Under the pieces are notes generated by a model. The model was not told the DNA's origin. It saw nothing but the letters and a program-made list of their open reading frames with translations, and did not search any database. Positions 7,266-19,366 of a stretch of 64,000 nucleotides of DNA are shown in pieces. The translations under genes were made by a program, and so were the position numbers. The stretch is taken from NCBI RefSeq assembly GCF_000378225.1, contig NZ_KB905142.1, forward strand, positions 350,719 through 414,718, in the 5' to 3' direction. This DNA comes from Methylophilus methylotrophus DSM 46235 = ATCC 53528. Its GTDB lineage: Bacteria > Pseudomonadota > Gammaproteobacteria > Burkholderiales > Methylophilaceae. Each line of letters begins with the position of its first letter. Positions within the stretch are counted from its first letter, which is position 1.

Positions 7266-7298
7266 ATAAAAAAACCCGCCCAAAAAAACAGGCGGGTA
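7266..7298 (-). terminator. Rho-independent terminator of the KRPY cassette 1
   Basis: Read on the minus strand, the stem ACCCGCC / GGCGGGT (7291-7297 with 7274-7280) encloses a 10-base T-rich loop and is followed by a run of seven Ts. It sits 38 bases after the stop of the minus-strand gene ending at 7336. Confidence 0.85.
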
Positions 7299-7335: not shown

Positions 7336-7632
7336 TTAGTCAGGGTTATGCGGTGCAAGATATGGCCGTTTACCCATAAAATTCATTTGATGTTGGTTAT
7401 GCTTAATCAATTTCTTTTCAGCTTGTTCTGGGTCTTCAGCTACTAAACCAGTGCCTTCCCAAGCTTCATCCGCACCTTTAGTCTTCACATCAGGGGCTTT
7501 GTTGTAAGGTCGCTGACCGAAATGATGATTGTTATTCACCCGACGCACACGTTGTTCGTTATCCGCTAGGTCCGCTGCATTTCCTTGTGCCACAAAGCCA
7601 AAGGCCAATATGGCTAATAATAGTTTTTTCAT
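7336..7632 (-). CDS. Small secreted KRPY-family protein, B type (cassette 1)
   Basis: 98 residues, start set by AGGAG six bases before ATG 7632. A signal peptide (MKKLLLAILAFGFVAQGNA) is followed by a short polar mature region with the repeated family motifs: HHFGQRPY, then W-E-G-T, then FMGKRPYLAP near the C terminus. Clear paralog of the protein at 19035-19322, with which it shares the order and spacing of all three motifs. It lies 71 bases behind the A-type gene on the same strand and before a strong terminator, so the two form an operon. I do not recognise a named family, and the function is unknown. Histidines preceding the first motif could bind metal (speculation). Confidence 0.85.
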   Translation of the reverse strand: MKKLLLAILAFGFVAQGNAADLADNEQRVRRVNNNHHFGQRPYNKAPDVKTKGADEAWEGTGLVAEDPEQAEKKLIKHNQHQMNFMGKRPYLAPHNPD

Positions 7633-7703
7633 TTGTAATCTCCTAAATTTGTCCTAAAGCAATTGGGGCGCTTCACTTGTTCGAGTGGACCCTATGTCCC
7701 ATA

Positions 7704-7970
7704 TTAAAAAGCGCGTTTACCAAGCATGTGCAGTTTTTGCACTTCATGAACATTCGCACGTCCGGTGTTACCATCTACCACCAGTGTTGCGCCTACCCAG
7801 GGTTGCTCACCGTCAGCTTTGGCAACCACTGGTTGAGCATATGGACGCTTGCTCAAAAAGTGTTGAACAGTTTGTACTTTTTCAATCCCACCATTTTGTT
7901 CAACCGCCACTACTGGGGCAGCAACAATAAAACCACCTACTAAAGCAATTGCAGAAATAACGTTACGCAT
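7704..7970 (-). CDS. Small secreted KRPY-family protein, A type (cassette 1)
   Basis: 88 residues with ribosome site AGGAG before ATG 7970. A hydrophobic N-terminal signal ending near PVVAVEQ leads into a mature region with FLSKRPYAQPVVAK, then QPWVGATLVVD, and ends exactly at MLGKRAF. It is a close paralog of the protein at 18696-18953, where the corresponding motifs are FLGKRPYQQPVVAK and QAWVGATLRVD, ending LGKRAY. First gene of the two-gene cassette, under the conserved promoter at 8027-8108. Function unknown. No peptide-modifying enzyme or transporter is adjacent, so export is presumably by Sec. Confidence 0.85.
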   Translation of the reverse strand: MRNVISAIALVGGFIVAAPVVAVEQNGGIEKVQTVQHFLSKRPYAQPVVAKADGEQPWVGATLVVDGNTGRANVHEVQKLHMLGKRAF

Positions 7971-8026
7971 GTTTGTTCTCCTATCTGTTAGTCAATGTGA
8001 TGGCAATCTGTTAAAACTTTGCTCAA

Positions 8027-8108
8027 TCACGATGGTTTGTATTATGCGCGGACTTTTTCCATAAATCGTCTATAGATATAGGTAGGTTGGTATATACCAA
8101 ACGGCATA
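8027..8108 (-). promoter_or_regulatory. Conserved KRPY-cassette promoter, copy 1
   Basis: Reading toward the A-type gene, a 34-bp box (8108 down to 8075, from TATGCCGTTT to CTACCTATATC) matches the copy at 18555-18588 at 30 of 34 positions. A -10-like CATAAT (8046-8041) follows, then the 13-bp block CAAACCATCGTGA (8039-8027), which is identical in the other copy. The box-to-block spacing is 35 bases here and 36 there. The box contains the palindrome GGTATATACC. There is no evident -35, as expected for an activator-dependent promoter. Confidence 0.75.
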
Positions 8109-8396
8109 CTTGGATTGCTTTAAGGATAAGAAAAATCAGGGCTGAGATGAGCTATTTTTAAGTCTCAACGAGGATTCGATGATCACAATAACGGTGTAGC
8201 AATAGGGTAGGTACCCGCAGCGCAAAACGCACAACGTCATCACATAAAAACCGTTGCTTACGGTAAGTGACTACCGTAAAAGGTAACTTGCTTTAGGAGG
8301 GTTGGCGCGGCGGTGATGCAATATTGAATCAAATTGCGAGGGATTTAACGCGTGGGCAATAAGTTGTCCACGCTACTTGGCTATGAATCCCTTAAA
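8109..8396. other. Non-coding spacer between KRPY promoter 1 and the HEPN-like gene
   Basis: Together with the promoter, this makes over 420 bases without a gene. It holds a perfect inverted repeat TTACGGTA-AGTGAC-TACCGTAA at 8258-8279, a GGGTAGGTACCC palindrome-like stretch near 8203-8216, and repeat copy 2 at 8349-8376. No open frame with a ribosome site was seen. Confidence 0.5.
8349..8376 (-). repeat. 28-bp palindromic repeat, copy 2 (inverted)
   Basis: Read on the minus strand it begins GTAGCGTGG and ends CCCACGCG. It forms a 10-bp stem GCGTGGGCAA / TTGTCCACGC with one G-U pair. It is an inverted copy of 7081-7108, and the two enclose KRPY cassette 1. Confidence 0.65.
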
Positions 8397-9710
8397 TTAC
8401 TTCTCCATACACTTTTCGGCTATTAATTTCTCCAGTCTTTCCTTTTCGCGGGTGTACCCATCGAAATTGATCATCATATTTGTCATAAAAAATGGTTTTG
8501 TCTTACCCAGTAAAGCTCCACTTTCGGAATCCCAAACTTCAAATGATCCATTACATAATGTTAGAAAATACATTTCGTGTAACTGTAGAGCACACTTGAT
8601 ATCGTCAATAGATTCAGTTTTGAGAGCATTACCCATATCTGTTAATGGGTTGAAATGCATTAGTTTTGCTTCTAATTCCAAATGAATTATGAATTGTATG
8701 GGGAATAATTTGTTTTTTATAGAGAAATGAAACCAGCCTTTAGTAATCTCAAAGCCTTCAATATAGCAATCATCCAGCGATAAAAACCTGTTCTCTTTTC
8801 TGACTAGAACACATACAGAATCAGGTACATCCACAGAAATGGTCTTGTCTGGTAAGTTTCCAGAAATTACCATTTGAAGTAAATCGCCACCTATAAATTT
8901 CTCAAAACCCTCTATTAAATTACGGGCTGGTCGACGCATTGAGCGATTCGGATAGTAAGAAAAACTCTCTTCAATTGCTAACTCCGCTAAGGCATGCATT
9001 ATCGGGATGTCGGCATATATACGCTGTATATCGTTTAGACTATCAGGGTTTGCAAAAACCTCTTTCTCTGCGTGCGCGATAGCATGTCGTCCTTGATTTA
9101 GCAAATAGGTACCAATATCCGAAATATCAGATTCGAGCTCTTGAATTCTCTTTAACGCTTGGTGGTCCGTTATCCGTGATATTGCTGATGAAAACCATTT
9201 TCCTCTATCTAAACCTTTAGTATGTATCGAGGATATAACTTTGTAGAAGCTTAAGAAACTATAGAATTTATTGTTACTTGAAATGGCCTCACGGAATAAT
9301 GCCAAGGCCACCATTAAACCATTTGATAGATCAGGTAAATTATCAGTCGCTAGATGATTGCCTACACTATCCATCCGCCCGCGGCCTATGTTAATCGGGA
9401 AGCTTCCTCCCGCCCAAGTGCTAATCTCTAACCTTTCCCCTTCACGCCAACTTAGGATGCTGGCAAACTTCATTATTTCATTGCGAGCTTGATTACTATC
9501 TAATCTGTACTGACCGTAGTTCAGACATATCGTAGGGAGATGCTTCTCATCAGTAGGACGTAAAATAAAATCAAATCCATTACAGGGAAAAATCTGTGGC
9601 GTCTTAGGCCAGAAAATACCCGTTTCAATCCCAGCAACCATCCATTTGCCACTATGCTTAAGATTAGTTTCGGCCTCTTGATGCAAATCTCTCAAAAATT
9701 CTTTTGTCAT
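8397..9710 (-). CDS. Uncharacterised protein with HEPN-like RxxxxH motif (possibly MauJ-like)
   Basis: 437 residues, soluble, no signal peptide. The only motif I can name is GRHAIAHAEKE at about residues 208-218, an R-x4-H arrangement typical of HEPN (apea-like) domains, which are often RNases or toxin parts. The overall look recalls standalone proteins annotated as 'MauJ' (methylamine utilisation, unknown role), but I cannot confirm this. The gene is visibly richer in A/T than its neighbours, stands alone on its strand, has a weak ribosome site and is flanked by palindromic repeat copies 2 and 3, all consistent with acquisition by transfer. No antitoxin partner is adjacent. Confidence 0.7.
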   Translation of the reverse strand: MTKEFLRDLHQEAETNLKHSGKWMVAGIETGIFWPKTPQIFPCNGFDFILRPTDEKHLPTICLNYGQYRLDSNQARNEIMKFASILSWREGERLEISTWAGGSFPINIGRGRMDSVGNHLATDNLPDLSNGLMVALALFREAISSNNKFYSFLSFYKVISSIHTKGLDRGKWFSSAISRITDHQALKRIQELESDISDIGTYLLNQGRHAIAHAEKEVFANPDSLNDIQRIYADIPIMHALAELAIEESFSYYPNRSMRRPARNLIEGFEKFIGGDLLQMVISGNLPDKTISVDVPDSVCVLVRKENRFLSLDDCYIEGFEITKGWFHFSIKNKLFPIQFIIHLELEAKLMHFNPLTDMGNALKTESIDDIKCALQLHEMYFLTLCNGSFEVWDSESGALLGKTKPFFMTNMMINFDGYTREKERLEKLIAEKCMEK

Positions 9711-9949
9711 AAACTTACTTAACTATTTGAAATGAGTCGCCTTGTCTTCAAAATCTGCAGAAGCGAGCTGATTAGCGTAGCCATGTTGTAGGGTGCGCAA
9801 CTCTTTTCCCATGGGATACATTATCAAAATTACCAGTGAAACTACATTTCTACAATAAGAACGACTTTAAAGTGATGGCAAGATATTGCCTAAACCTATT
9901 AGATAGGCAGATATTTAAAATTTTTGCCGATATGAAATCGTTTATAAAC
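9711..9949. other. Non-coding spacer with repeat copy 3
   Basis: Between the HEPN-like gene start and the metY terminator. It holds repeat copy 3 (9788-9815). The rest is AT-rich, with no convincing gene; the open frame running rightward from 9836 has no ribosome site and overlaps the terminator. Confidence 0.5.
9788..9815 (+). repeat. 28-bp palindromic repeat, copy 3 (degenerate)
   Basis: Starts GTAGGGTGCGCAACTC and differs from copy 1 at about five of 28 positions. The palindrome is partly broken here. Same orientation as copy 1. Confidence 0.5.
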
Positions 9950-9980
9950 GAAAAAAGCGCAGCATCGCTGCTGCGCTTTC
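9950..9980 (-). terminator. Rho-independent terminator downstream of metY
   Basis: Perfect 11-bp stem AAAGCGCAGCA / TGCTGCGCTTT (9954-9964 and 9969-9979) with loop TCGC, followed on the minus strand by a T run (9956-9951). It lies 50 bases after the metY stop. Confidence 0.88.
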
Positions 9981-10029
9981 ATTATTTTTCGCAATATCAA
10001 AAACCGACATGGCCAGTTTTTGATCAGCT

Positions 10030-11301
10030 TTAAACCTTCGCCAGTGCTTGCTCCAAATCTGCAATCAAATCATCGATATGCTCAATGCCTACCGATAACC
10101 TGACCATATCTTCGCTCACACCTGCACGTGCCAGTTCTTCTGCATTGAGTTGACGGTGGGTGGTGGTAGCGGGGTGGCAAGCGAGGCTTTTTGCATCGCC
10201 AATATTGACCAAGCGTGTGAACAGTTGCAGCGCGTCAATAAAGCGGGTGCCGCCTTCGCGGCCGTCTTGTACGCCAAAAGACAAAATGCCTGAGGCGTGG
10301 CCGTTGAGGTATTTTTTCACCAGTGCATGGTCGGGATGGTCTTCAAGCCCGGCGTATCTGACCCATTTCACTTTGGGATGGTTTTTCAGATAATTTGCGA
10401 TTGCCAGAGCGTTGGTGCTGTGTCTTTCAATTCTAAGTGCAAGCGTTTCCAGGCCTTGCAGAATCAAAAAACTGTTAAATGGGCTGATGGCGGCGCCGGT
10501 GTTGCGCAAGGGCACGACGCGGGCGCGGGCGATGTAGGCGGCGGGGCCTAATGCCTCGACGTAGTTGACGCCATGATAGCTGGGGTCCGGGGTGTTGAGG
10601 CTGGTGAAGCGTTTAGCGTGCTCGCCCCATGGGAATTTGCCGCTATCGACGATGATACCGCCAATCGAGTTGCCGTGACCGCCGATGTATTTGGTTAGCG
10701 AGTGCACCACAATATCCACGCCATGCTCAAATGGACGCGATAGAATGGGCGTGGCGACGGTGTTATCGACAATCACCGGTACGCCATGTTTATGCGCGGC
10801 GGCGCTGATGGCGGCGAGATCGACCACATTGCCGAGCGGGTTGCCTATGGTTTCAGCAAACACTAGTTTGGTGCGGCTGTCGATGAGTTTTTCCAGTGAA
10901 GCCGGGTCGCGGTAATCAAAAAATCTGACTTCTATACCTTGCTTGGGCAAGGTGTGCGCAAAAAAGTTATAGGTGCCGCCATAGAGTGTGGAGACAGAAA
11001 CAATATTATCGCCTGCCTCGGCAATGGTTTGAATCGCGTAGGTAATGGCGGCCATGCCAGAAGCCAATGCCAATGCGCCAATGCCGCCTTCCAGTTGTGC
11101 AAGCCTCTCTTCTAGTACCGCAGTGGTGGGATTCATAATGCGGGTGTATATATTGCCCTGTACCTTGAGGTCAAACAGGTCTGCGCCATGCTGAGTATTA
11201 TCAAACGCATAAGAGGTCGTTTGGTAAATGGGCACCGCAACCGCCTTGGTAGTGGGGTCTGGTTGATAGCCGCCATGGATATATATGGTCTCTTGCTTCA
11301 T
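10030..11301 (-). CDS. metY: O-acetylhomoserine sulfhydrylase (PLP enzyme)
   Basis: 423 residues from ATG 11301, which has CAGGAG nine bases upstream; an upstream in-frame start would add 18 unlikely residues. Cys/Met-metabolism PLP fold: the opening ETIYIHGGYQPDPTTKA, then YGGTYNFF, DNTVATP and HSLTKYIGGHGNSIGG with the Schiff-base lysine. It converts O-acetylhomoserine and sulfide to homocysteine (direct sulfhydrylation). It stands beside ribA on the same strand, apart from other met genes. An inverted repeat at 11362-11392 lies in the upstream region and may be the operator. Confidence 0.93.
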   Translation of the reverse strand: MKQETIYIHGGYQPDPTTKAVAVPIYQTTSYAFDNTQHGADLFDLKVQGNIYTRIMNPTTAVLEERLAQLEGGIGALALASGMAAITYAIQTIAEAGDNIVSVSTLYGGTYNFFAHTLPKQGIEVRFFDYRDPASLEKLIDSRTKLVFAETIGNPLGNVVDLAAISAAAHKHGVPVIVDNTVATPILSRPFEHGVDIVVHSLTKYIGGHGNSIGGIIVDSGKFPWGEHAKRFTSLNTPDPSYHGVNYVEALGPAAYIARARVVPLRNTGAAISPFNSFLILQGLETLALRIERHSTNALAIANYLKNHPKVKWVRYAGLEDHPDHALVKKYLNGHASGILSFGVQDGREGGTRFIDALQLFTRLVNIGDAKSLACHPATTTHRQLNAEELARAGVSEDMVRLSVGIEHIDDLIADLEQALAKV

Positions 11302-11361
11302 CTCGTCGCTCTCCTGCTTATGATTATTGGAAAAAGCAGTATAACCCCGACGCAAGCAGAG

Positions 11362-11392
11362 GGTTATAACATTTGGTGAATGACTTATAACC
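11362..11392 (-). promoter_or_regulatory. Inverted repeat upstream of metY, candidate operator
   Basis: GGTTATAA (11362-11369) and TTATAACC (11385-11392) form perfect 8-bp arms separated by 15 bases, between the ribA stop and the metY start. A third half-site-like GTATAACC lies at 11339-11346. The spacing suits a dimeric repressor or activator, which is not identified. Confidence 0.5.
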
Positions 11393-11419
11393 TTTATTTA
11401 TGAGGCGATGGGAGGCTAG

Positions 11420-12019
11420 TCACAAGTCCGGAATCAAATGCCCAAGCTTCATTGACTTGGTCTGCAGGTACTTGAGATTTTCTGTGGTAGGCGTCGTCAA
11501 CAAAGGGACTTGCTGATTAATCGTAATACCGAAAGACTGCAAAGCAGTGCGTTTTTCCTGGTTGTTGGAAAGCAGGCGGATGCTATTAATCTCGAAGTAG
11601 CGCAGCATCTCTGCTGCGCTTTCGTAAGTGCGGGCATCTATCGGCAAGCCCAGGGCGACATTGGCTTCTACGGTATCCATGCCTTGGTCTTGCAGGGCGT
11701 AAGCAAGCATTTTATTGGTAAGGCCTATGCCGCGCCCTTCATGATTTTTCAAGTAGAGGATCAAGCCCTGGCCAGTTTCCTGGATCAGGCGCTGGGCATG
11801 ATGCAATTGTTCACCACAGTCGCAACGCGTAGAGCCGAATACATCTCCAGTCAGGCACTCTGAGTGCACCCTGACCAGCGGGTCGGTGGCACCTTGCAAT
11901 TCCCCATAAGCCAGGGCGACATGCTCCAAACCATTGCGGCTGTCAGTGAATACATGGATATCAAACTCGCCAAACTGGGTGGGTAATCTGGCAGTGGAGG
12001 TGTGGGATAAAAATTGCAT
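11420..12019 (-). CDS. ribA: GTP cyclohydrolase II
   Basis: 199 residues, the usual length for single-domain RibA. Motifs are HSECLTGDVFGSTRCDCGEQL-type (three zinc-binding cysteines), YLKNHEGRGIGL and DTVEANVALGLPIDAR. It opens GTP to the first riboflavin precursor, 2,5-diamino-6-ribosylamino-pyrimidinone phosphate, in the cytoplasm. It is transcribed toward metY. No FMN riboswitch is seen in the 140 bases upstream. Confidence 0.95.
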   Translation of the reverse strand: MQFLSHTSTARLPTQFGEFDIHVFTDSRNGLEHVALAYGELQGATDPLVRVHSECLTGDVFGSTRCDCGEQLHHAQRLIQETGQGLILYLKNHEGRGIGLTNKMLAYALQDQGMDTVEANVALGLPIDARTYESAAEMLRYFEINSIRLLSNNQEKRTALQSFGITINQQVPLLTTPTTENLKYLQTKSMKLGHLIPDL

Positions 12020-12124
12020 GTCAGCGGGTGATTAAAGGCTCAATGTCATATTGTAGCGTTTGCCAGGTTTTTAAAGTATCCCTGCGCAATTAATCTGAAC
12101 TTTTGCCGGTGATAGCGGCCTGCA

Positions 12125-12141
12125 TTTAAGCTTGGTTTAAG
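12125..12141 (+). promoter_or_regulatory. PmrA/QseB-type box (TTTAAG-N5-TTTAAG)
   Basis: Two direct TTTAAG half-sites at 12125-12130 and 12136-12141 are separated by CTTGG. This fits the PmrA/QseB consensus YTTAAK-N5-YTTAAK exactly and lies about 55 bases before the first gene of a two-component operon whose regulator is of that family, indicating autoregulation (inference). Confidence 0.65.
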
Positions 12142-12193
12142 ATGGATACTGTTAAACTTTGCCATGTGTGCCGTTTTCAGGAGCTTGTTATAC

Positions 12194-12520
12194 ATGTTTT
12201 GGACGCAACGTCGTGCATGGATGGGCTGGTTTGCCTTGTTGGTTTTGCTTGTCACGCTGTTTTTTTTACCGCGTGCTGATTCGGGGGAAAGCCCAGCCAA
12301 CGCTGGCCGCTTATCTGCCAAGGGGGAAATCATGAGCCTGGAAAAAATCTCGCAAAAAGCCAAGTCCTATAAAGCCGGTGAAATTCTTGAGGTAGAACTG
12401 GAGAAGAAGCATGGGCGCTATGTGTATGAGATTGACATACTGGATGCCGGCAGCCAGGTGTGGGAGTTGAAACTGGATGCCAAGACCGGGCAATTGCTGA
12501 AAATGGAGCAGGACGACTGA
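12194..12520 (+). CDS. PepSY-domain membrane-anchored protein
   Basis: 108 residues from ATG 12194, ten bases after AGGAG; a GTG at 12164 would add ten residues. The N terminus carries one membrane segment (WFALLVLLVTLFFLP), followed by a single PepSY domain: SLEKISQKAKSYKAGEILEVELEKK-like start, YVYEIDILD, and the end motif LKLDAKTGQLLKME. PepSY domains are small extracytoplasmic folds, often paired with sensor kinases. Its TGA overlaps the ATG of the response regulator (TGATG at 12518-12522), so the two are translationally coupled. Likely an accessory of the kinase. Confidence 0.85.
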   Translation: MFWTQRRAWMGWFALLVLLVTLFFLPRADSGESPANAGRLSAKGEIMSLEKISQKAKSYKAGEILEVELEKKHGRYVYEIDILDAGSQVWELKLDAKTGQLLKMEQDD

Positions 12521-13185
12521 TGCGCTTGCTGTTGGTAGAAGATGATGGCGTACTTGGTGCGCAAACCCAACAAGCGCTTAAGGCCGCTGGTTATGCGTGT
12601 GATTGGTTACAAGAGGGTGTGGAAGCTGGTATTCAAGGTGAGCTGGAGCCGTATGACCTGGTGATTCTCGATTTGGGCTTGCCGGGTCGGCCCGGACTGG
12701 AAGTCTTGGCCGAATGGCGGAGTAAAGCCCTTTGCATGCCGGTGATTGTGTTGACGGCCCGCAGTAGCTGGCAGGAGAAGGTAGAGGCCTTTAACCTGGG
12801 GGCAGATGATTATGTAACCAAGCCTTTTCATATGGAAGAGTTGCTGGCACGCATTAGTGCGGTGCACAAGCGCACGGTTGGGGTCGTTAGCGGTGGCCTG
12901 GTGGTTGAGGATTTAAAACTGGATGAGCACACACAAACCGTCTGGCAGGGCGAAACGGCGCATGTGTTGACGGGCACCGAGTTCAGGCTGTTACGTTACC
13001 TCATGCTGCATCCTGGCCGCATTTTTTCTAAAACCGAACTGACTGAACACGTGTATGCCTATGACGCTGATAAAGACAGCAATGTGATTGAGGTGTATGT
13101 GAACCGTCTGCGACAAAAAATAGGCGTGGATAAAATCCAGACCAAACGTGGTCAGGGTTATGTATTTGGGAGTACGGTGGTATGA
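12520..13185 (+). CDS. OmpR/PhoB-family response regulator (QseB/PmrA/PhoP-like)
   Basis: 221 residues, starting at the ATG that overlaps the preceding stop. The receiver domain has the acidic pair (LVEDD), phospho-acceptor Asp in LVILDLGLPG, Thr in VLTAR and Lys in VTKPF. The C-terminal winged helix has LTGTEFRLLRYLM, SNVIEVYVNRLRQKIG and TKRGQGYVF. It is a DNA-binding regulator phosphorylated by the kinase encoded next, with which it overlaps by four bases. The box at 12125-12141 and a second one at 14918-14934 suggest it controls both PepSY genes. Confidence 0.95.
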   Translation: MRLLLVEDDGVLGAQTQQALKAAGYACDWLQEGVEAGIQGELEPYDLVILDLGLPGRPGLEVLAEWRSKALCMPVIVLTARSSWQEKVEAFNLGADDYVTKPFHMEELLARISAVHKRTVGVVSGGLVVEDLKLDEHTQTVWQGETAHVLTGTEFRLLRYLMLHPGRIFSKTELTEHVYAYDADKDSNVIEVYVNRLRQKIGVDKIQTKRGQGYVFGSTVV

Positions 13186-14510
13186 AGTCCCTGCGCAGGC
13201 AGCTGTCGTGGGGGCTGACCTTAAGCCTGGTTGGGCTGCTGACGCTGCAATGGGCTGTGGTCACCTTTACCATAGATCATTTGATCCAGTCGCAGATGAG
13301 GGCGCGCATGCAACAGGAAGCAGAAGGCGTGCTTGCTGGCGTGACGGTCAATACAAAAGGTCAGCTGGTATTAGCGCCGCATGTGATGACGGCTTCCTAT
13401 CAGCGTCCTTTTTCCGGGCGCTATTTTATTGTGATGCTAGATGAGTCACACAAAGCCAAATCCCGCTCATGGTGGGATGTCGAACTACCTGTTCAAGCGC
13501 TCAAAGTGGGTGAAGAGCAGGTGACGCACGTGACCGGCCCCGAATCGCAGCCATTATTGTTATTGGGGCATGGCTACCGCAAGCAGCAAAAAACCATCAC
13601 GATTTATGTGGCTGAAAGCCTGGTGGAGTTACAACAAAGTTTGCGCATGTTTCATTGGTTGTATGGCGTGTTTTCCTTGCTGGGCTTGCTGGCGCTGCTT
13701 GCTTTACAGCGCTGGATCGTCGTGAATACGCTGAATCCCTTACAACAGATCAAGGAAAGTCTGGCCAAAGTGGCCAGCGGTGAATTGCAGCAGATTCATG
13801 CCAGCGGCCCGGCGGAAGTGATGCCGCTTATCAACGAATTTAACCGTATTCTCAAAAGCGCCAGCCAGAAAACCCGGCGCTCACGGCTGGCCATTGGCAA
13901 TCTGGCGCACGGGCTCAAAACCCGTCTCGCCCAGCTGCAATTATTATCTGGGGATGCCACGGCAGAAAGTGATGCCCAGTTACGGCAAATGATACAAAGC
14001 TGCACTGACGATATTCATCAGGATGTGGAGCGTGAATTAAAACGCGCCCGCTTGATGGGCGACGTGTATACCAGTCAATACACTGACCTGGAAGTGGAGC
14101 TGCCTAAGCTGGTGGCAACACTGCAAAAGATCTACAGCGAAAAGACCGTGGCTTTTGCCTGGCAGCATGATGGTCAGGCGCGCGTGATGATAGACCGTGA
14201 AGATATGCTGGAGTTACTCGGCAACGTACTGGATAACGCGTTTAAATGGTGCAATAGCCAGGTGCAATTAACCATCTCAGTGGAGCATGCTATCCGGGTG
14301 GTTGTCGAGGATGACGGCCCAGGAAGCAATGCGCCAGCGCTTGAAACCCTGTTACAGCGTGGCATGCGGATGGATGAATCCAAACCGGGCAGCGGCCTGG
14401 GCCTGGCGATTGTGCAGGATATTGTGCAACATTATCATGGTCACATTGCACTCGTGCACTCCGAACGCTTGGGAGGGTTGTGTGTGCATATCGCATTAAT
14501 GCCTGCCTGA
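13182..14510 (+). CDS. PhoQ/QseC-like sensor histidine kinase
   Basis: 442 residues. Membrane segments at about 12-32 and 160-182 enclose a periplasmic sensor region; a HAMP-like linker follows. The H-box reads NLAHGLKTRLAQL, resembling the PhoQ H-box (NLTHSLKTPLAVL) except that the usual Pro after Thr is Arg. N-box LGNVLDNAFKW, G1 EDDGPG and G2 GSGLGLAIVQDI are intact. It autophosphorylates at His in response to an envelope signal and acts on the overlapping response regulator. The signal is unknown; PhoQ relatives sense divalent cations, pH or cationic peptides. Confidence 0.93.
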   Translation: MKSLRRQLSWGLTLSLVGLLTLQWAVVTFTIDHLIQSQMRARMQQEAEGVLAGVTVNTKGQLVLAPHVMTASYQRPFSGRYFIVMLDESHKAKSRSWWDVELPVQALKVGEEQVTHVTGPESQPLLLLGHGYRKQQKTITIYVAESLVELQQSLRMFHWLYGVFSLLGLLALLALQRWIVVNTLNPLQQIKESLAKVASGELQQIHASGPAEVMPLINEFNRILKSASQKTRRSRLAIGNLAHGLKTRLAQLQLLSGDATAESDAQLRQMIQSCTDDIHQDVERELKRARLMGDVYTSQYTDLEVELPKLVATLQKIYSEKTVAFAWQHDGQARVMIDREDMLELLGNVLDNAFKWCNSQVQLTISVEHAIRVVVEDDGPGSNAPALETLLQRGMRMDESKPGSGLGLAIVQDIVQHYHGHIALVHSERLGGLCVHIALMPA

Positions 14511-14519
14511 GGCAGGCAT
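14499..14519. terminator. Hairpin between convergent kinase and PepSY genes
   Basis: ATGCCTGCC-TGA-GGCAGGCAT is a perfect 9-bp stem whose loop is the kinase stop codon. There is no clear T run on either side, so termination is uncertain. Confidence 0.45.
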
Positions 14520-14535
14520 ATTAGATCAACGCTTA

Positions 14536-14871
14536 TTAGAACCAGTCACGATTGACGCTATTGACCTTCCCCGTTTTGGCATCAATAGTCACTTCCCATT
14601 CGGCGCCATTGCTATCAACAATTTCCACCTCATAGTCCCAGCCGGAACGGAATTTACGGCGTTCCAGCTCTACCTCTTTCACGACACCCGGTTTGGCGGC
14701 CAAGGCTTTTGTCTGCGCCTCTTCCAATGAAATCAGGCCAAAGGCTTTTGCCATTTCGGCGATTTTGGCAGGATCATCGTCATCATCGGCCCAGGCTGGT
14801 TGACTCATCATCACACCACATAGCAGGGTGATGATGAAAAGGTTTGCAGGTTTGTGAATCAATGTGCTCAT
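14536..14871 (-). CDS. Secreted PepSY-domain protein
   Basis: 111 residues if started at the ATG of MSTLIHKP, which has GGAG six bases upstream; ATGs at 14874 and 14883 are alternatives. A signal peptide ends at QPAWADDDD. The mature part is one PepSY domain: ISLEEAQTKALAAKPG, EVELERRKF, WDYEVEIVDSNG and the terminal VTIDAKTGKVNSVN. It is periplasmic. It is convergent with the kinase gene and divergent from the KRPY gene at 15078; a PmrA-like box lies in that divergent region. Similar in layout to the PepSY protein opening the operon, hence a second accessory of the same system. Confidence 0.88.
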   Translation of the reverse strand: MSTLIHKPANLFIITLLCGVMMSQPAWADDDDDPAKIAEMAKAFGLISLEEAQTKALAAKPGVVKEVELERRKFRSGWDYEVEIVDSNGAEWEVTIDAKTGKVNSVNRDWF

Positions 14872-14917
14872 CATGTTCTCCATTTTGTTTATTGAGGCTT
14901 CACCATACAGAGCGTGC

Positions 14918-14934
14918 CTTAATTCAAGCTGAAT
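14918..14934 (-). promoter_or_regulatory. PmrA/QseB-like box in divergent PepSY/KRPY promoter region
   Basis: CTTAAT-TCAAG-CTGAAT matches the 6-5-6 direct repeat with one mismatch in the second half-site. About 30 bases further, CTTGAT-GAAAG-CTTTGT (14966-14982) is a weaker match. Also TTCAAGCTGAA (14923-14933) is inverted as TTCAGCTTGA at 14961-14970. The region drives the PepSY gene leftward and the KRPY gene rightward. Confidence 0.45.
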
Positions 14935-15077
14935 AATGATGTGCTTTTATTGGGCTGGCGTTCAGCTTGATGAAAGCTTTGTGAAAGTCTCATGTAAGAC
15001 AAGTGCGCTACAGTGAACACCATGAAATCCGTCTCAACAGGGCGGCAACAACGAAGTGTCAATTAAAGGAGATTACG

Positions 15078-15332
15078 ATGAAAACAGCGAAATTAGTTGG
15101 TGTAGTTGGTTTGGTTACATTGTCATTTGCTGGATCTGCCATGGCAAGTCAGGCTGTTGTTACTCAAAATATTGCGAAAAGACCGCTGCTTGAGCAGTCT
15201 GTTGCAAATGCAGATCAGGCTTGGGAGGGCGCCAGCTTGAAAAAAGACACTCATTTGCAGGCACTACGTGCGCAAACGAGCTTGCAGTTTGCGAGCAAAC
15301 GCGCTTACCTTGCCCCTTTGGCAACCGAGTAA
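15078..15332 (+). CDS. Small secreted KRPY-family protein, singleton
   Basis: 84 residues, start at ATG 15078 with AAAGGAG upstream. The signal peptide ends at GSAMASQ. The mature protein has IAKRPLLEQS, then QAWEGASL, and ends FASKRAYLAPLATE, so it shares the motif order of the paired KRPY proteins; its end (KRAYLAP) matches the B type (KRPYLAP / KRPYIAP). It stands alone and lacks the conserved 34-bp promoter box; its upstream region instead has PmrA-like half-sites. It converges on the response regulator gene with only four bases between stops. Unknown function. Confidence 0.85.
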   Translation: MKTAKLVGVVGLVTLSFAGSAMASQAVVTQNIAKRPLLEQSVANADQAWEGASLKKDTHLQALRAQTSLQFASKRAYLAPLATE

Positions 15333-15336
15333 AATA

Positions 15337-15792
15337 TCAGCTTGAATAGCCTGGTAATTGCAAGTTGGGTTGATGCTGTTTGAGCTGGGTAAACAACCAG
15401 CGGGTCTCAAGCAATATCCAGACACGCAACATGGCTTCCATTGGATCAAAAGGCTTGGTTAAAAAGTCTTTTGCACCCAAGGCCAACGCCTTGCGGCGAG
15501 TCGCGATGGTGGCATCTGCTGTGAGTACCAGCACAGGCAGGTATTCATTCTGACCCAGATGATGCGAGAGCTGGTCCAATACTGCAAAGCCATCCAGTAC
15601 CGGCATCATTAAGTCGAGCAAAATGAGGTCAGGCTGGAACGCATTGACCAGATCCATGGTTTTGGTCGGGTCCGTGGTGCTGATGACTTGTTCAAAGCCT
15701 TCCTTGGTCAGCAGCTCTTCCAGCAGCCTCAGGTTTGCTTCGGCATCATCAATGATTAAAATTTTGGAAGCGCGTAGTTGTTCGATATTCAT
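15337..15792 (-). CDS. Single-domain response regulator (CheY-like)
   Basis: 151 residues made of one receiver domain: acidic pair in ILIIDDAE, phospho-acceptor in LILLDLMMPVLDG, Thr in VLTADA and Lys in LTKPFDP, followed by a 30-residue helical tail. There is no output domain, so it passes the signal to a partner or tunes the hybrid kinase encoded 19 bases upstream. Last gene of a three-gene minus-strand run: LuxR regulator, hybrid kinase, receiver. Confidence 0.92.
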   Translation of the reverse strand: MNIEQLRASKILIIDDAEANLRLLEELLTKEGFEQVISTTDPTKTMDLVNAFQPDLILLDLMMPVLDGFAVLDQLSHHLGQNEYLPVLVLTADATIATRRKALALGAKDFLTKPFDPMEAMLRVWILLETRWLFTQLKQHQPNLQLPGYSS

Positions 15793-15811
15793 GTGGGTAG
15801 CTCTCAGAATT

Positions 15812-17785
15812 TTATTCTGGCAATAATTTTAATAGTAACTGGTTGAATGCGGCGACATTCAATGGCTTGGTGAAGTAATGGGTAATTCCCAAGGCATTTA
15901 GCCGTTGTATCGTTTCTGGCAGGGCATCTGCACTCAATATCAGCACCGGAATGTTTTGTAAATCTTTTCGGCTTGCCTGGATATGGTTGATCAGTGTCTC
16001 ACCGGAGCCATCGGGCAGGTTAAGGTCCAGCAACAATAAATCCGGTTGCATATCGCGTAACCAGATCATGCTTTCCTGCAAGCTGGCAGCCAGGTGTAAC
16101 TTGAGATGCCTGTGTTTTCCTATGATCGCTTCAATCAGTGCCTGGTTGCTCTGATTGTCTTCCACATACAGCACATGGCGTTTTGCTACTGGCGAAGTCG
16201 GAGAGGTGCTGTGTGGTAAAGCATCAATGGCCGCCGCTTGTTTGATGGCAGGCGCCGCGGCCTTTTGCTTTGCCTCAGGCAAGCTGATCCAGAACAGGCT
16301 TTTATCCTCTGCCACTCCAATCTGGCCACCCATGGCGTCCATTAACTGTTTACTGAGCACCAGGCCCAAGCCGGTGCCTTCAGTCACTGTGCGCTCAGCG
16401 CCCAGCCGGTCAAAAGGCGTGAACAAGCGGGAACGTAAGTCTGCCGGGATGCCTGGTCCCTGGTCTTGCACATCAACACGGATGTTGCCCTGCTGGCGGT
16501 AAGCACTGAAGGCCACACTGGAATTTTCCGGACCATATTTCAAGGCGTTAGCCAGCAGGTTCAGGATGACTTGTAACAGCCGTTGCCTGTCGGCGCGAAC
16601 GGTCAATGCAGGTTCAAAGTGTGTTTCTATGGTGATGTCCCGCACCTTTTCCAAAGGTTTTAAATAGTGGTAAGCCTCTTCTAGCAAGTTATTCAGGGCG
16701 ATGACTTCCATCGACATGCTGATATCCCCACTTTCAATATGCGAAATATCCAGCACTTCATTAATCAGCTTCAGTAAGTGCTGCCCCGCGTTATGTATCA
16801 GTGTGGCACTGTCTTTTTGCCGCCCTTCCGGCAAGTCATTTTCGAGAATTTGCGCAAATCCGAGGATGGCATTGAGGGGGGTACGCAATTCGTGGCTGGT
16901 GCGAGATAAAAAATTACTTTTTGCGGCGCTGGCTTCTTCGGCTTCTACGCGCGCCTGGTGGGCTTCCTGCGCACTCTGGGTCAGCAGTTGCGAGGCATGT
17001 TCCAGTTCGCTGGTGAGTTCGCCCAGTTCATCACGGCTGATGCTGGGTAACGCCAATGGTTCCCCTTTGACCAGGTGGATGGCACTGTCACGTATGGTCC
17101 GCACCCGGGCGACAATGGTCTGGCTGAATATCCAGACGCCAATCAGTGAACCCAGCACACCGGCAATCACAGCCATCAGCGTGATGCGTAAATTACGCTT
17201 TCGTTCGTAAACCACCTCTTTTTTATCCTGCTCGACAATCGCCGATTCACGCTGGCTCATGCGTTCCAGATGAGCCCTCAGTTGATTTAAGGCATTGCCC
17301 TGCGAACTGAACTTTTCGATCAGGGCTTCGTCAGCTTTTTCTTTTCTGTGGCTGGCGAGGGCAGCCAGGTCATCCAGGTTTTTGGCGACCAGGGGGTGAA
17401 TTACCTGTAACAGTTGCTGTTGCGATTGATCATCCAGGTTATGTTCCAGAGAATCAAGCAGCTGAGGCATGCTCTGCTTCGCACTTTCATAGCCCGTCAG
17501 GAACTGGCGGTTACCCGTCAGCAGAAAGTCACGCACCCCGGTCGATGCTTCCAGTAACAGGGTTTGCAGGGTCTGGATGTCCTGCTGGATTTGTAGCGCA
17601 TTTTGCACGCGCCTTTCCAGCAAGGCCGCCTGTTGTTCACTCTCAAAAATAAGGGCCAGCGAAGCCAGCAGAACAGTCAAGGGCAGTGCATTGAGCACAA
17701 TGCCTTTGATGGTTAATGATAAGTCCTGCCACAGGTGGTCCATGCGGCTGGAGAGATTGTGGATGGCATGCAATAAGGCTTTCAT
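15812..17785 (-). CDS. Hybrid sensor histidine kinase with C-terminal receiver
   Basis: 657 residues. Two membrane segments (about 26-48 and 202-224) frame a mostly helical periplasmic sensor of about 150 residues that looks like CHASE3 (ASTGVRDFLLTGNRQFL). HAMP follows, then HisKA with SHELRTPLNAI, the ATPase domain (LLANALKYG, DQGPGIP, GTGLGLVLSKQLM) and a receiver domain with the Asp in LLLLDLNLPDG. Its ATG lies two bases after the LuxR stop and a separate receiver protein follows, so the three genes form one signalling unit adjacent to the KRPY cassette 2. The stimulus is unknown. Confidence 0.93.
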   Translation of the reverse strand: MKALLHAIHNLSSRMDHLWQDLSLTIKGIVLNALPLTVLLASLALIFESEQQAALLERRVQNALQIQQDIQTLQTLLLEASTGVRDFLLTGNRQFLTGYESAKQSMPQLLDSLEHNLDDQSQQQLLQVIHPLVAKNLDDLAALASHRKEKADEALIEKFSSQGNALNQLRAHLERMSQRESAIVEQDKKEVVYERKRNLRITLMAVIAGVLGSLIGVWIFSQTIVARVRTIRDSAIHLVKGEPLALPSISRDELGELTSELEHASQLLTQSAQEAHQARVEAEEASAAKSNFLSRTSHELRTPLNAILGFAQILENDLPEGRQKDSATLIHNAGQHLLKLINEVLDISHIESGDISMSMEVIALNNLLEEAYHYLKPLEKVRDITIETHFEPALTVRADRQRLLQVILNLLANALKYGPENSSVAFSAYRQQGNIRVDVQDQGPGIPADLRSRLFTPFDRLGAERTVTEGTGLGLVLSKQLMDAMGGQIGVAEDKSLFWISLPEAKQKAAAPAIKQAAAIDALPHSTSPTSPVAKRHVLYVEDNQSNQALIEAIIGKHRHLKLHLAASLQESMIWLRDMQPDLLLLDLNLPDGSGETLINHIQASRKDLQNIPVLILSADALPETIQRLNALGITHYFTKPLNVAAFNQLLLKLLPE

Positions 17786-17787
17786 GA

Positions 17788-18555
17788 TTATAAGCCGTCA
17801 CTTTTGAATCCAGCTTCCACAGCCTTGACTGCGGCCTGGGTGCGGTCATTCAGGTCCAGTTTGCTTAGAATTCGTTCGATATGAATCTTGACTGTGCCTG
17901 GTGAAATGCCCAGTTTCTCCGCTAATAATGCATTGCTGGCGCCAGAAGGCAGCAGGGCAAACACTTCGCGCTCGCGAGGCGTGAGTTTCTGCAAGTAGCT
18001 GTCATCAATTGCTGCTGCGGTTTGGGTCTGACCGCGCAAGGCAAAGCCCAGCAAACCGCAGATACTGTGCAACACTTGCAGGCTATTCGTGTTTAAGGGG
18101 TTGCTGGTCATGAGCCCAAGCAATCCTACCGCGTGTTGCTGGCAGGCAATCGGCAAGTGATAGCAGTGCAGTGCTGGCTCTGTATTGCCTTGTATCGTCC
18201 ACAGGCTTGGGACGAATTGGTTATGCACTTCGAAATGGATGGGTTCTTTGAGCCAGACTGCCAGCGCTCCCAGCATGGGCACGCGCGCGCCTATGGGAAA
18301 GGTTTTGCCACGCTGCGCCAGTATCTTGAGTGCACCTGCATGTTGCTGGCTGATTAAACCATGTGGCGCACCAAATTGCATGCACATCTCGTCTAACAGC
18401 CATTGCAGCAGCTCTTCAGACCATCCACTCGTAAACAGCCTTTGCCCAAATCCCTCAAACAACCTTTCATGAGCGATTTGCACTTGTGTTTGTTTCAACG
18501 CGTTGCGTAAAGCAAACGCGCTTTCTGTGGGTGGGGATGGAGTGTCATTTGGCAT
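17788..18555 (-). CDS. LuxR-type transcriptional regulator with GAF-like N-terminal domain
   Basis: 255 residues when begun at ATG 18555 (MPNDTPSPP). The frame stays open to a TTG at 18645, but those 30 codons coincide with the conserved non-coding promoter shared with 8027-8108, so the shorter start is preferred. No ribosome site precedes it, and a -10-like TATACT lies nine bases upstream, so the mRNA may be leaderless. Residues about 20-175 resemble a GAF-type sensory domain; the C terminus is a LuxR helix-turn-helix (LTPREREVFALL, NALLAEKLGISPGTVKIHIERIL). There is no receiver domain. Candidate activator of the KRPY cassettes. Confidence 0.85.
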   Translation of the reverse strand: MPNDTPSPPTESAFALRNALKQTQVQIAHERLFEGFGQRLFTSGWSEELLQWLLDEMCMQFGAPHGLISQQHAGALKILAQRGKTFPIGARVPMLGALAVWLKEPIHFEVHNQFVPSLWTIQGNTEPALHCYHLPIACQQHAVGLLGLMTSNPLNTNSLQVLHSICGLLGFALRGQTQTAAAIDDSYLQKLTPREREVFALLPSGASNALLAEKLGISPGTVKIHIERILSKLDLNDRTQAAVKAVEAGFKSDGL

Positions 18556-18636
18556 ATGCCGTTTAGTATATATCGAACTACCTATATCGGGAGATTTTTT
18601 GTTGTCAGAACCCGGGCAAAATGCAAACCATCGTGA
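18555..18636 (+). promoter_or_regulatory. Conserved KRPY-cassette promoter, copy 2, divergent from luxR
   Basis: 34-bp box at 18555-18588 (TATGCCGTTTAG to CTACCTATATC), -10-like CAAAAT at 18617-18622 and the block CAAACCATCGTGA at 18624-18636. All three parts align with copy 1 at 8108-8027. The box abuts the LuxR start codon and overlaps that gene's TATACT, so one protein bound here could activate the peptide genes and repress luxR (inference). Confidence 0.75.
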
Positions 18637-18695
18637 ATGCATCAAGATTCACTGAAGCGAGTAAATAGATTGATTAACCATGAAGGAGAAAGAAT

Positions 18696-18953
18696 ATGCG
18701 TAAAGTATCTGTAGTTATCACAATGATCTTGGGGTTTGCATGGGTATTGCCAGCACAAGCGGCTGAAACCAATACCGGTGACAGTGTTCACAACATACAT
18801 CATGTACATTTTCTGGGCAAACGCCCGTATCAACAGCCTGTGGTAGCTAAAACCGATGCTGAGCAGGCTTGGGTGGGTGCCACGCTGAGAGTGGACAATA
18901 ATAACCACCAGCAAACCTTGAAAATGCACTCCCTTGGCAAGCGGGCTTACTAG
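18696..18953 (+). CDS. Small secreted KRPY-family protein, A type (cassette 2)
   Basis: 85 residues with ribosome site AAGGAG upstream. The signal peptide ends near PAQAAE. The mature region is histidine-rich before the first motif (HNIHHVHFLGKRPY), then QAWVGATLRVDNN, and ends LGKRAY at the very C terminus. Close paralog of the protein at 7704-7970. It begins the second two-gene cassette, divergent from the LuxR regulator. Function unknown; histidines and the exposed basic-aromatic ends suggest metal or surface binding, but nothing in the sequence proves it. Confidence 0.86.
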   Translation: MRKVSVVITMILGFAWVLPAQAAETNTGDSVHNIHHVHFLGKRPYQQPVVAKTDAEQAWVGATLRVDNNNHQQTLKMHSLGKRAY

Positions 18954-19034
18954 TCAGTGTTGCGTAAGGTTCATGCGACATAATCAGTTTACATCTGGAA
19001 AGATGTATACACATAAATGATGAAGGAGCGAAAA

Positions 19035-19322
19035 ATGAGTAAATTATTATTGGTACTCTTGATGACATTTGGTTTAATGGCTTCAGCCCAAGCAGAAGAA
19101 TCGCTAGACCAAGAGCCATCAATTAACCAGATGCAACACAACCATTCGTTAGGCAAGCGTCCTTATTCCAAAATCCCGACTGCCAAGCAAAGTCAGGATG
19201 AAAAATGGGTGGGGGCGGGGATTGTCACCGATAGCCCGGACAAAGGCTACGACAAGCACCAGCAAATGCGCTTAAACTTTATTGGTAAGCGTCCTTACAT
19301 TGCCCCTACGAATAACGATTAG
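19035..19322 (+). CDS. Small secreted KRPY-family protein, B type (cassette 2)
   Basis: 95 residues from ATG 19035, which has AAGGAG seven bases upstream; an ATG at 19017 lacks one. The signal peptide ends at ASAQAEE. The mature part has HNHSLGKRPYSK, then EKWVGAGIVTD, and near the end NFIGKRPYIAP. Paralog of the protein at 7336-7632. It follows the A-type gene by 81 bases and precedes a strong terminator, the same organisation as cassette 1. Unknown function. Confidence 0.86.
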   Translation: MSKLLLVLLMTFGLMASAQAEESLDQEPSINQMQHNHSLGKRPYSKIPTAKQSQDEKWVGAGIVTDSPDKGYDKHQQMRLNFIGKRPYIAPTNND

Positions 19323-19342
19323 AATATGTATGATAGACCTCA

Positions 19343-19366
19343 GCCCCGCACGATTGCGGGGTTTTG
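19343..19366 (+). terminator. Rho-independent terminator of KRPY cassette 2
   Basis: Stem CCCCGCA / TGCGGGG (19344-19350, 19355-19361) with loop CGAT, followed by TTTTG, 21 bases after the stop at 19322. Confidence 0.85.

Follow-up and report, generated by a model that had tools for sequence, protein, structure and literature searches.

The gene for the small periplasmic protein CpxP lies divergent from the two-component genes cpxRA, and the current view is that CpxP dampens CpxA through contact with the periplasmic domain of this sensor (excerpt of PMC6737893). In a different field, that of dissolved-inorganic-carbon supply, MpsAB is described as a supply system that is interchangeable with carbonic anhydrase (excerpt of PMC8567241). 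Here we describe a locus that can be compared with both systems, and with BicA-like uptake, in a stretch of 64,000 nucleotides from Methylophilus methylotrophus DSM 46235 (contig NZ_KB905142.1, positions 350,719 to 414,718 of the forward strand), which is called the window in the following and whose positions are used throughout. The window encodes five small secreted-type proteins, here called KRPY proteins, together with a LuxR-type regulator, a CHASE3 histidine kinase, a SulP-family transporter and a carbonic anhydrase (CA). In the reading that we prefer, held tentatively as plausible and short of probable, the KRPY proteins are exported, probably disordered periplasmic accessory proteins of an inorganic-carbon supply circuit, and four of their five genes follow a promoter box likely bound by the GAF-LuxR regulator.

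The likeness to Cpx/CpxP, which extends to Spy and ZraP, is one of layout: a gene for a small periplasmic protein stands divergent from its own two-component genes, CpxP being a highly expressed output, and a KRPY gene is likewise divergent from its own sensor and regulator genes. The KRPY proteins differ in having neither a sequence relation to CpxP (the LTXXQ Pfam profile for CpxP, Spy and ZraP gave no match to the five proteins up to E 1) nor a confident fold, in having as regulator a GAF-LuxR protein without a receiver domain, and in that the box-defined regulon is tiny and lies beside SulP-CA. As in BicA-like uptake, the transporter of the window (PF00916) adjoins a beta-CA, but the KRPY locus adds secreted-type accessory proteins and a LuxR/CHASE3 circuit at its head, and we know of no description of a SulP-CA locus headed in this way. 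DabAB, of which kind we take MpsAB to be, is represented by DabA and a DabB-like protein inside the KRPY locus in three genomes, whereas the usual neighbour of KRPY is SulP and not DabAB. Among the titles and abstract openings listed for Methylophilaceae regulators, for CHASE3, GAF and LuxR proteins and for bicarbonate, a coverage outside which most subscription papers fall, none describes the KRPY family or its circuit.

Four of the KRPY genes form two cassettes. Cassette 1, on the minus strand, encodes a type B protein of 88 amino acids (7704..7970) and a type A protein of 98 amino acids (7336..7632); cassette 2, on the plus strand, encodes a type B protein of 85 amino acids (18696..18953) and a type A protein of 95 amino acids (19035..19322). 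The fifth gene, a singleton of type C on the plus strand, encodes 84 amino acids (15078..15332). These open reading frames (ORFs) had been picked out in the original prediction, made by a model from the DNA letters alone, and are present at these coordinates, all with Shine-Dalgarno-like sequences and N-terminal hydrophobic stretches, the signal peptides being called by eye. Two-gene pairs do occur twice, as that prediction had it, but its A-B order was mistaken, since B precedes A in both cassettes; and each pair does end in a terminator-like hairpin, located by a hairpin scan at 7274..7297 (minus strand) after cassette 1 and at 19342..19363 (plus strand) between the KRPY genes of cassette 2 and the SulP gene. 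The number of hairpins is by itself no evidence, because comparable ones amount to 2 per scanned stretch against 1.5 and 1.0 in shuffled sequences.

All five ORFs follow the pattern [GSA]-x-R-[PA]-[YFL] ... W-x-G-[AT] ... [GSA]-x-R-[PAS]-[YF], which retains the two motifs and the central W-x-G of the architecture first suggested, but not its Lys and His, which are not family-wide features. Conservation was scored on 68 of the 72 KRPY ORFs found, four truncated or contig-edge ORFs being excluded. Among these 68 aligned members the Arg of motif 1 is invariant (68/68), the Arg of motif 2 nearly so (67/68), and the Trp and Gly of W-x-G are present in 60/68 and 64/68, respectively. The majority residues are [QHN]-[FN]-[LIF]-[GSA]-x-R-[PA]-[YLV] for motif 1 and [LM]-x-x-[LI]-[GSA]-[KRQ]-R-[PAS]-[YF] for the C-terminal motif, with exceptions in both. 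In the ortholog groups of the four paired genes, the ratio of nonsynonymous to synonymous substitution rates (dN/dS) of the mature part is 0.11 for type B and 0.08 for type A of cassette 2 (n=8 and 8), and 0.16 for both proteins of cassette 1 (n=6 and 6); the mature parts of these four paired genes are under purifying selection. The KRPY proteins are probably disordered: AlphaFold2, run with 58 sequences, returned a low-confidence, mostly coil model with helices only at residues 2-16 and 72-79 (predicted local distance difference test 57.7; predicted template modelling score 0.16).

A search of the own genome with one B protein returned the other B (E 5e-18), the paired A proteins (7e-10 and 7e-5), a copy on contig C4 (2.5e-4) and, no better than 0.1, the singleton. 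A profile of 57 relatives, built without the group of the singleton (8 rows) and that of the C4 copy (3 rows), picked the singleton out of 4623 ORFs (E 3.8e-9), and the singleton is a genuine fifth member because a profile lacking its own group still finds it. The C4 copy is a sixth KRPY gene of the genome, outside the window (G000:C4, L069 10182-10442). It sits directly 3' of genes that we named by eye as demethylase-like and ferredoxin-like, an arrangement repeated in genomes G009 and G013; the gene ahead of it resembles those of heme-dependent oxidative N-demethylases.

The original prediction recognised no named family in these proteins, and the database searches agree: no Pfam or NCBIfam family lies above its curated cut-off for the five proteins (the best NCBIfam match, TIGR01043, is chance-like, with E 0.004 and 15.6 bits against a cut-off of 972), and no chain of the PDB was matched by KRPY in a sequence search with E up to 1. 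Of 187 Methylophilaceae genomes, 41, spread over 7 of 24 genera, are matched by a 29-member profile, which in a class-wide sample matches one genome of 369, the window's own, and none of the 368 others; at most 28 first-look candidates per genome were scored in the family-wide search and at most 14 in the class-wide one. Protein database searches returned 159 and later, in a database clustered at 90% identity, 620 proteins with E up to 0.01, and among the best 120 of each set the named ones belong to Methylophilus, Methylotenera and Methylophilaceae, plus one Cellvibrio-labelled metagenome-assembled genome (P0113). The profile search by which the original prediction could be checked has thus found a coherent secreted-type family of methylotrophs with conserved regulators. 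Its two functional ideas did not survive the alignment: neither metal binding nor dibasic processing fits the family, because His and Lys are unconserved. A metal-binding His-rich peptide is not supported, the histidines (alignment columns 45-49) being missing in many members: the position three residues ahead of the [GSA] of motif 1 holds Q, H and N in 31, 22 and 14 of the 68, respectively, and no column upstream of motif 1 exceeds H in 32/68. Processing at Lys-Arg is not supported either, the Lys being replaced by Q, R or S in 16/68 members in motif 1 and by R or Q in 12/68 in motif 2, and the motif reading GSRPY in two genomes; no cleavage motif is conserved among the 68 aligned members. 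Taken as a whole, the observation that opened this work is confirmed and its interpretation partly supported.

A box of about 40 base pairs (bp), with consensus TATGCcgttnaGTATAtACCgnncTACCTATatnggtAGA, is common to the upstream regions of both cassettes. A pattern search placed it at 8067..8108 on the minus strand for cassette 1 (TATGCCGTTTGGTATATACC...CTACCTATATC...) and at 18555..18596 on the plus strand for cassette 2, where it abuts the start codon of luxR, and four of the five KRPY genes of the window follow a box. With up to 3 mismatches, a 22-base core pattern has two sites in the genome of 2.86 megabases, both ahead of the two cassettes, and the reversed pattern has zero in the same genome. 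Among 61 relatives, each of the 31 matches with no more than 2 mismatches lies at KRPY or luxR. Over the 187 family genomes, a longer and looser pattern with up to 2 mismatches gave 57 matches, against 2 in the reversed control: 48 have a KRPY gene no more than 600 bp away, another 4 adjoin luxR (G010, G030, G136, G138), 1 stands beside luxR at a contig end (G006) and 4 lie elsewhere, each with 2 mismatches. By this measure, 39 of the 42 genomes with LuxR have a box. A -10-like hexamer stands at offset 62 from the box start, CATAAT for cassette 1 (8041..8046, minus strand) and CAAAAT for cassette 2 (18617..18622, plus strand), and it recurs at this offset in 44/44 distinct sites (runner-up offset, within the box: 28), which are not independent events, because they share ancestry and were collected around KRPY or luxR. 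Such a fixed -10 phase would fit an activator that binds immediately ahead of a weak -35 element, and regulation by LuxR is predicted from the shared box and this phase. In the interval 18550-18645 the presumed start codon of luxR overlaps the box, and the luxR reading frame is open further upstream.

The regulator cluster is divergent from cassette 2 and lies entirely on the minus strand. It consists of the GAF-LuxR transcription regulator (17788..18555), in which Pfam finds GerE above the cut-off, GAF just below it (20.1 against 22.4 bits) and no receiver domain; of a hybrid histidine kinase with a CHASE3 sensor and a receiver, both from Pfam (15812..17785), conserved beside luxR; and of a protein that reads as a stand-alone receiver, with no Pfam scan of its own (15337..15792), conserved beside the kinase. 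In most relatives with LuxR the order is receiver, CHASE3 kinase, LuxR, then the box with the genes pointing away from it on either side, one to three KRPY genes, SulP and carbonic anhydrase. LuxR orthologs are found in 42 of 187 genomes, and their distribution is nearly that of KRPY: 40 genomes have both, 2 have LuxR only, 1 has KRPY only (G018, 80% complete) and 144 have neither (Fisher p 3e-37, a value that ignores shared ancestry). At the same spot, the two LuxR-only genomes encode a secreted-type protein of 68 amino acids with a single motif, KFLGSRPY, which has no Pfam match and is matched by the 68-member family profile at E 1e-4 and 2.6e-4. The kinase is present in 9 of 10 other LuxR-containing genomes checked, with a fragment on another contig in G024; no kinase was found at the cut-off in G118, whose LuxR is near a contig end. 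The receiver gene beside the kinase is present in G010, G013 and G017 according to tblastn.

Related GAF-LuxR loci were found at a greater distance in Duganella, in Stagnimonas, in two Xanthomonas and in two further genomes (L221, L122, L233, L234, L235, L236), with identities of 34-36%, over residues 65-250 only in Xanthomonas. They resemble the window in having a related LuxR and, in 6/6 loci, a TATGCC-N4-GGCATA-like element (found by eye) at the luxR start and a facing secreted-type gene, and they differ from it in that the facing product is not KRPY: it is of the SnoaL/CaMKII_AD type in 4 and without a Pfam match in 2. These six loci suggest an operator of this LuxR in the left part of the box, and a secreted protein as its usual output. 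Circuits in which LuxR has a single secreted output may form a wider class.

The link to inorganic carbon comes from the genes behind the KRPY pair of cassette 2. These encode, on the plus strand, a SulP-family anion transporter (PF00916, 19415..21001; relatives 5da0, 5iof and 6ki1), likely for bicarbonate as judged by homology and context, and a beta-carbonic anhydrase (PF00484, 21048..21692). By hand tally, SulP adjoins KRPY or the box in 38 of the 42 genomes with LuxR, a count that takes in three genomes with LuxR on a separate contig (G006, G016, G197) and two without a KRPY gene in between (G010, G030). The exceptions are G024, G034, G118 and G192, all four with KRPY beside LuxR. A SulP of at least 63% identity occurs in 40/42 genomes with LuxR and in 4/145 without it (Fisher p 1e-33, again ignoring shared ancestry), once five genomes with a 53-55% identical SulP are set aside; in three of those four (G005, G018, G141) SulP is at a contig edge, at the expected place of LuxR, and the fourth (G099) is 48% complete. 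In G192, SulP is replaced by DabA (PF10070, E 6e-257) and a DabB-like protein, on the other strand, with a LysR regulator and a carbonic anhydrase, so that this locus too holds an inorganic-carbon-type transporter together with a carbonic anhydrase; in G171 and G188, DabA (E 3e-212 and 7e-205) and a DabB-like protein (PF00361, PF00662) come after SulP-CA. DabA is thus in the KRPY cluster in 3 of the 14 LuxR-containing genomes that have it; the genome of the window has DabA elsewhere. Since SulP alone could move other anions, the substrate is best indicated by the fact that two unrelated types of inorganic-carbon transporter share one locus. In G024, whose SulP is elsewhere, the KRPY pair is followed at a distance of about 1 kb by a bestrophin-like gene (L063 2249-2986), and in two small-genome relatives (L065 10146-11549, L196 6552-7955) a protein of 467 amino acids with only sub-cut-off Pfam matches replaces SulP after KRPY.

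A mechanism can be proposed on the basis of the reading as accessory proteins. The CHASE3 kinase would sense an envelope or inorganic-carbon/pH cue and would control LuxR in some way, a loose wording that suits a LuxR with a GAF-like domain but without a receiver; LuxR would then activate the box promoter, and the KRPY pair would be made in bulk and exported. SulP and carbonic anhydrase would be expressed by read-through of a leaky hairpin or from their own promoter. The KRPY proteins might dock, through their two short [GS]-x-R-[PA]-[YF] motifs, on a membrane protein of the circuit, for which the CHASE3 sensor is the likeliest candidate, and docking might damp or tune this sensor as CpxP does CpxA. 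The sensor is favoured as the partner for two reasons: in G034, whose genome is a single contig, kinase, LuxR and KRPY persist where no SulP reaches the cut-off, and the layout matches that of cpxP, divergent from cpxRA. A stronger version we consider conceivable and rather doubtful: Methylophilaceae would have a dedicated inorganic-carbon sensing circuit with a new class of disordered secreted peptides as its main product, and the repeated GKRPY motif would act as a periplasmic messenger, telling the CHASE3 kinase how far transporter or sensor is occupied, so that CO2/bicarbonate supply would be under peptide feedback.

Several observations weigh against this picture. As to the box, the 22-base pattern with up to 3 mismatches gave 42 matches in the 61 relatives, against 23 for the reversed control, the 11 matches with 3 mismatches being mostly away from KRPY and luxR; three genomes with LuxR (G188, G192, G197) have no box at 2 mismatches, G192 keeping the left half. 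Two KRPY members, the singleton at 15078 and the C4 copy, have no box, and the only two mismatch-free half-boxes of the window lie elsewhere than at the singleton. As to the regulators, G024 has a kinase fragment (42% identity) apart from LuxR, receiver and KRPY and head to head with SulP on the small contig C79, which could be real or an assembly effect, and in G133 (L197 8470-9239) the module looks decayed, because luxR is split in two frames and one KRPY copy carries a stop. As to the transporter, the SulP of the window matches 6ki1 (E 2.8e-18) about as well as it does 5da0 and 5iof, which are named sulphate transporters; 6ki1 is the cyanobacterial BicA, and its structure file lists it as a low-affinity sulfate transporter. 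Because 6ki1 does not stand out among SulP structures as the nearest to the SulP of the window, it is again the co-location of DabAB and SulP that gives the best clue. A hairpin of -9 kcal/mol or below separates KRPY from SulP in 20/34 loci, the window included, so that a single KRPY-SulP transcript is unproven, and 4/34 loci, among them G136 and G138, have no hairpin there. Finally, in G010 and G030 the SulP locus keeps box and carbonic anhydrase, with KRPY only elsewhere in the genome.

The same facts bear on other roles for the KRPY proteins. They might be periplasmic subunits or chaperones that directly aid the SulP transporter or the carbonic anhydrase, as the position of SulP after KRPY in most loci and the genome-wide co-occurrence would suggest; we regard this as unlikely, given that KRPY is kept in G034 without SulP at the cut-off and in G192 with DabAB instead, and that extra cassettes, such as cassette 1 of the window, lie away from SulP. 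The hairpin found in 20/34 loci would be at home in another explanation, by which KRPY would serve generally, in envelope stress or as a structural protein, without any particular connection to carbon supply, and SulP-CA is merely a stable neighbour. Members in unrelated loci, among them the one 3' of the demethylase-like gene and those near an RND efflux set, agree with it, whereas the tracking of LuxR by SulP over 187 genomes and the presence of DabAB in the cluster in 3 of the 14 LuxR-containing genomes having DabA do not, and we judge it improbable too.

Peptide signalling would account for a dedicated regulator beside a secreted-type product: as pheromones, the KRPY proteins would be exported, sensed by the CHASE3 kinase and induce their own genes via LuxR, and the one-motif version suggests that the motif could be the recognised unit. 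The CHASE3 region is more divergent than HisKA (median identity 44% vs 77% in 40 kinases), a comparison that may be cited in favour and does not discriminate co-divergence of sensor and peptide. The strong conservation of the mature parts of the four paired genes within Methylophilus (dN/dS 0.08-0.16), the several different paralogs per genome and the lack of the expected variable core with a conserved processing site, no such site being conserved, make this role quite improbable. Small size, predicted secretion, tandem paralogs and an extra cassette near the RND efflux set in several relatives might also recall antimicrobial or competition peptides, but the mature part is under purifying selection and the proteins are the output of a circuit tied to SulP-CA, and this role appears very improbable.

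Other neighbourhoods of KRPY genes are mentioned for completeness. Beside the singleton, a two-component pair (12460-14510) lies between two PepSY-domain genes (12164-14883), an arrangement that recurs in 12 compared loci, and this pair may control the singleton. A MauJ-family gene, of methylamine utilisation, adjoins cassette 1 (8397-9710). In several Methylophilus relatives (L045, L048, L051, L055, L062) the extra KRPY cassette has YaeQ on one side and different genes on the other, in the vicinity of the RND efflux set.

Compared with the original prediction, the promoter box, the LuxR, kinase and receiver cluster as part of the system and the SulP-carbonic anhydrase link are new, and a large unnamed family (620 proteins at 90% identity clustering) gains a locus, a promoter and a testable role. 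The locus also hints at the way in which heterotrophic methylotrophs, small-genome ones included, would control their supply of CO2/bicarbonate.

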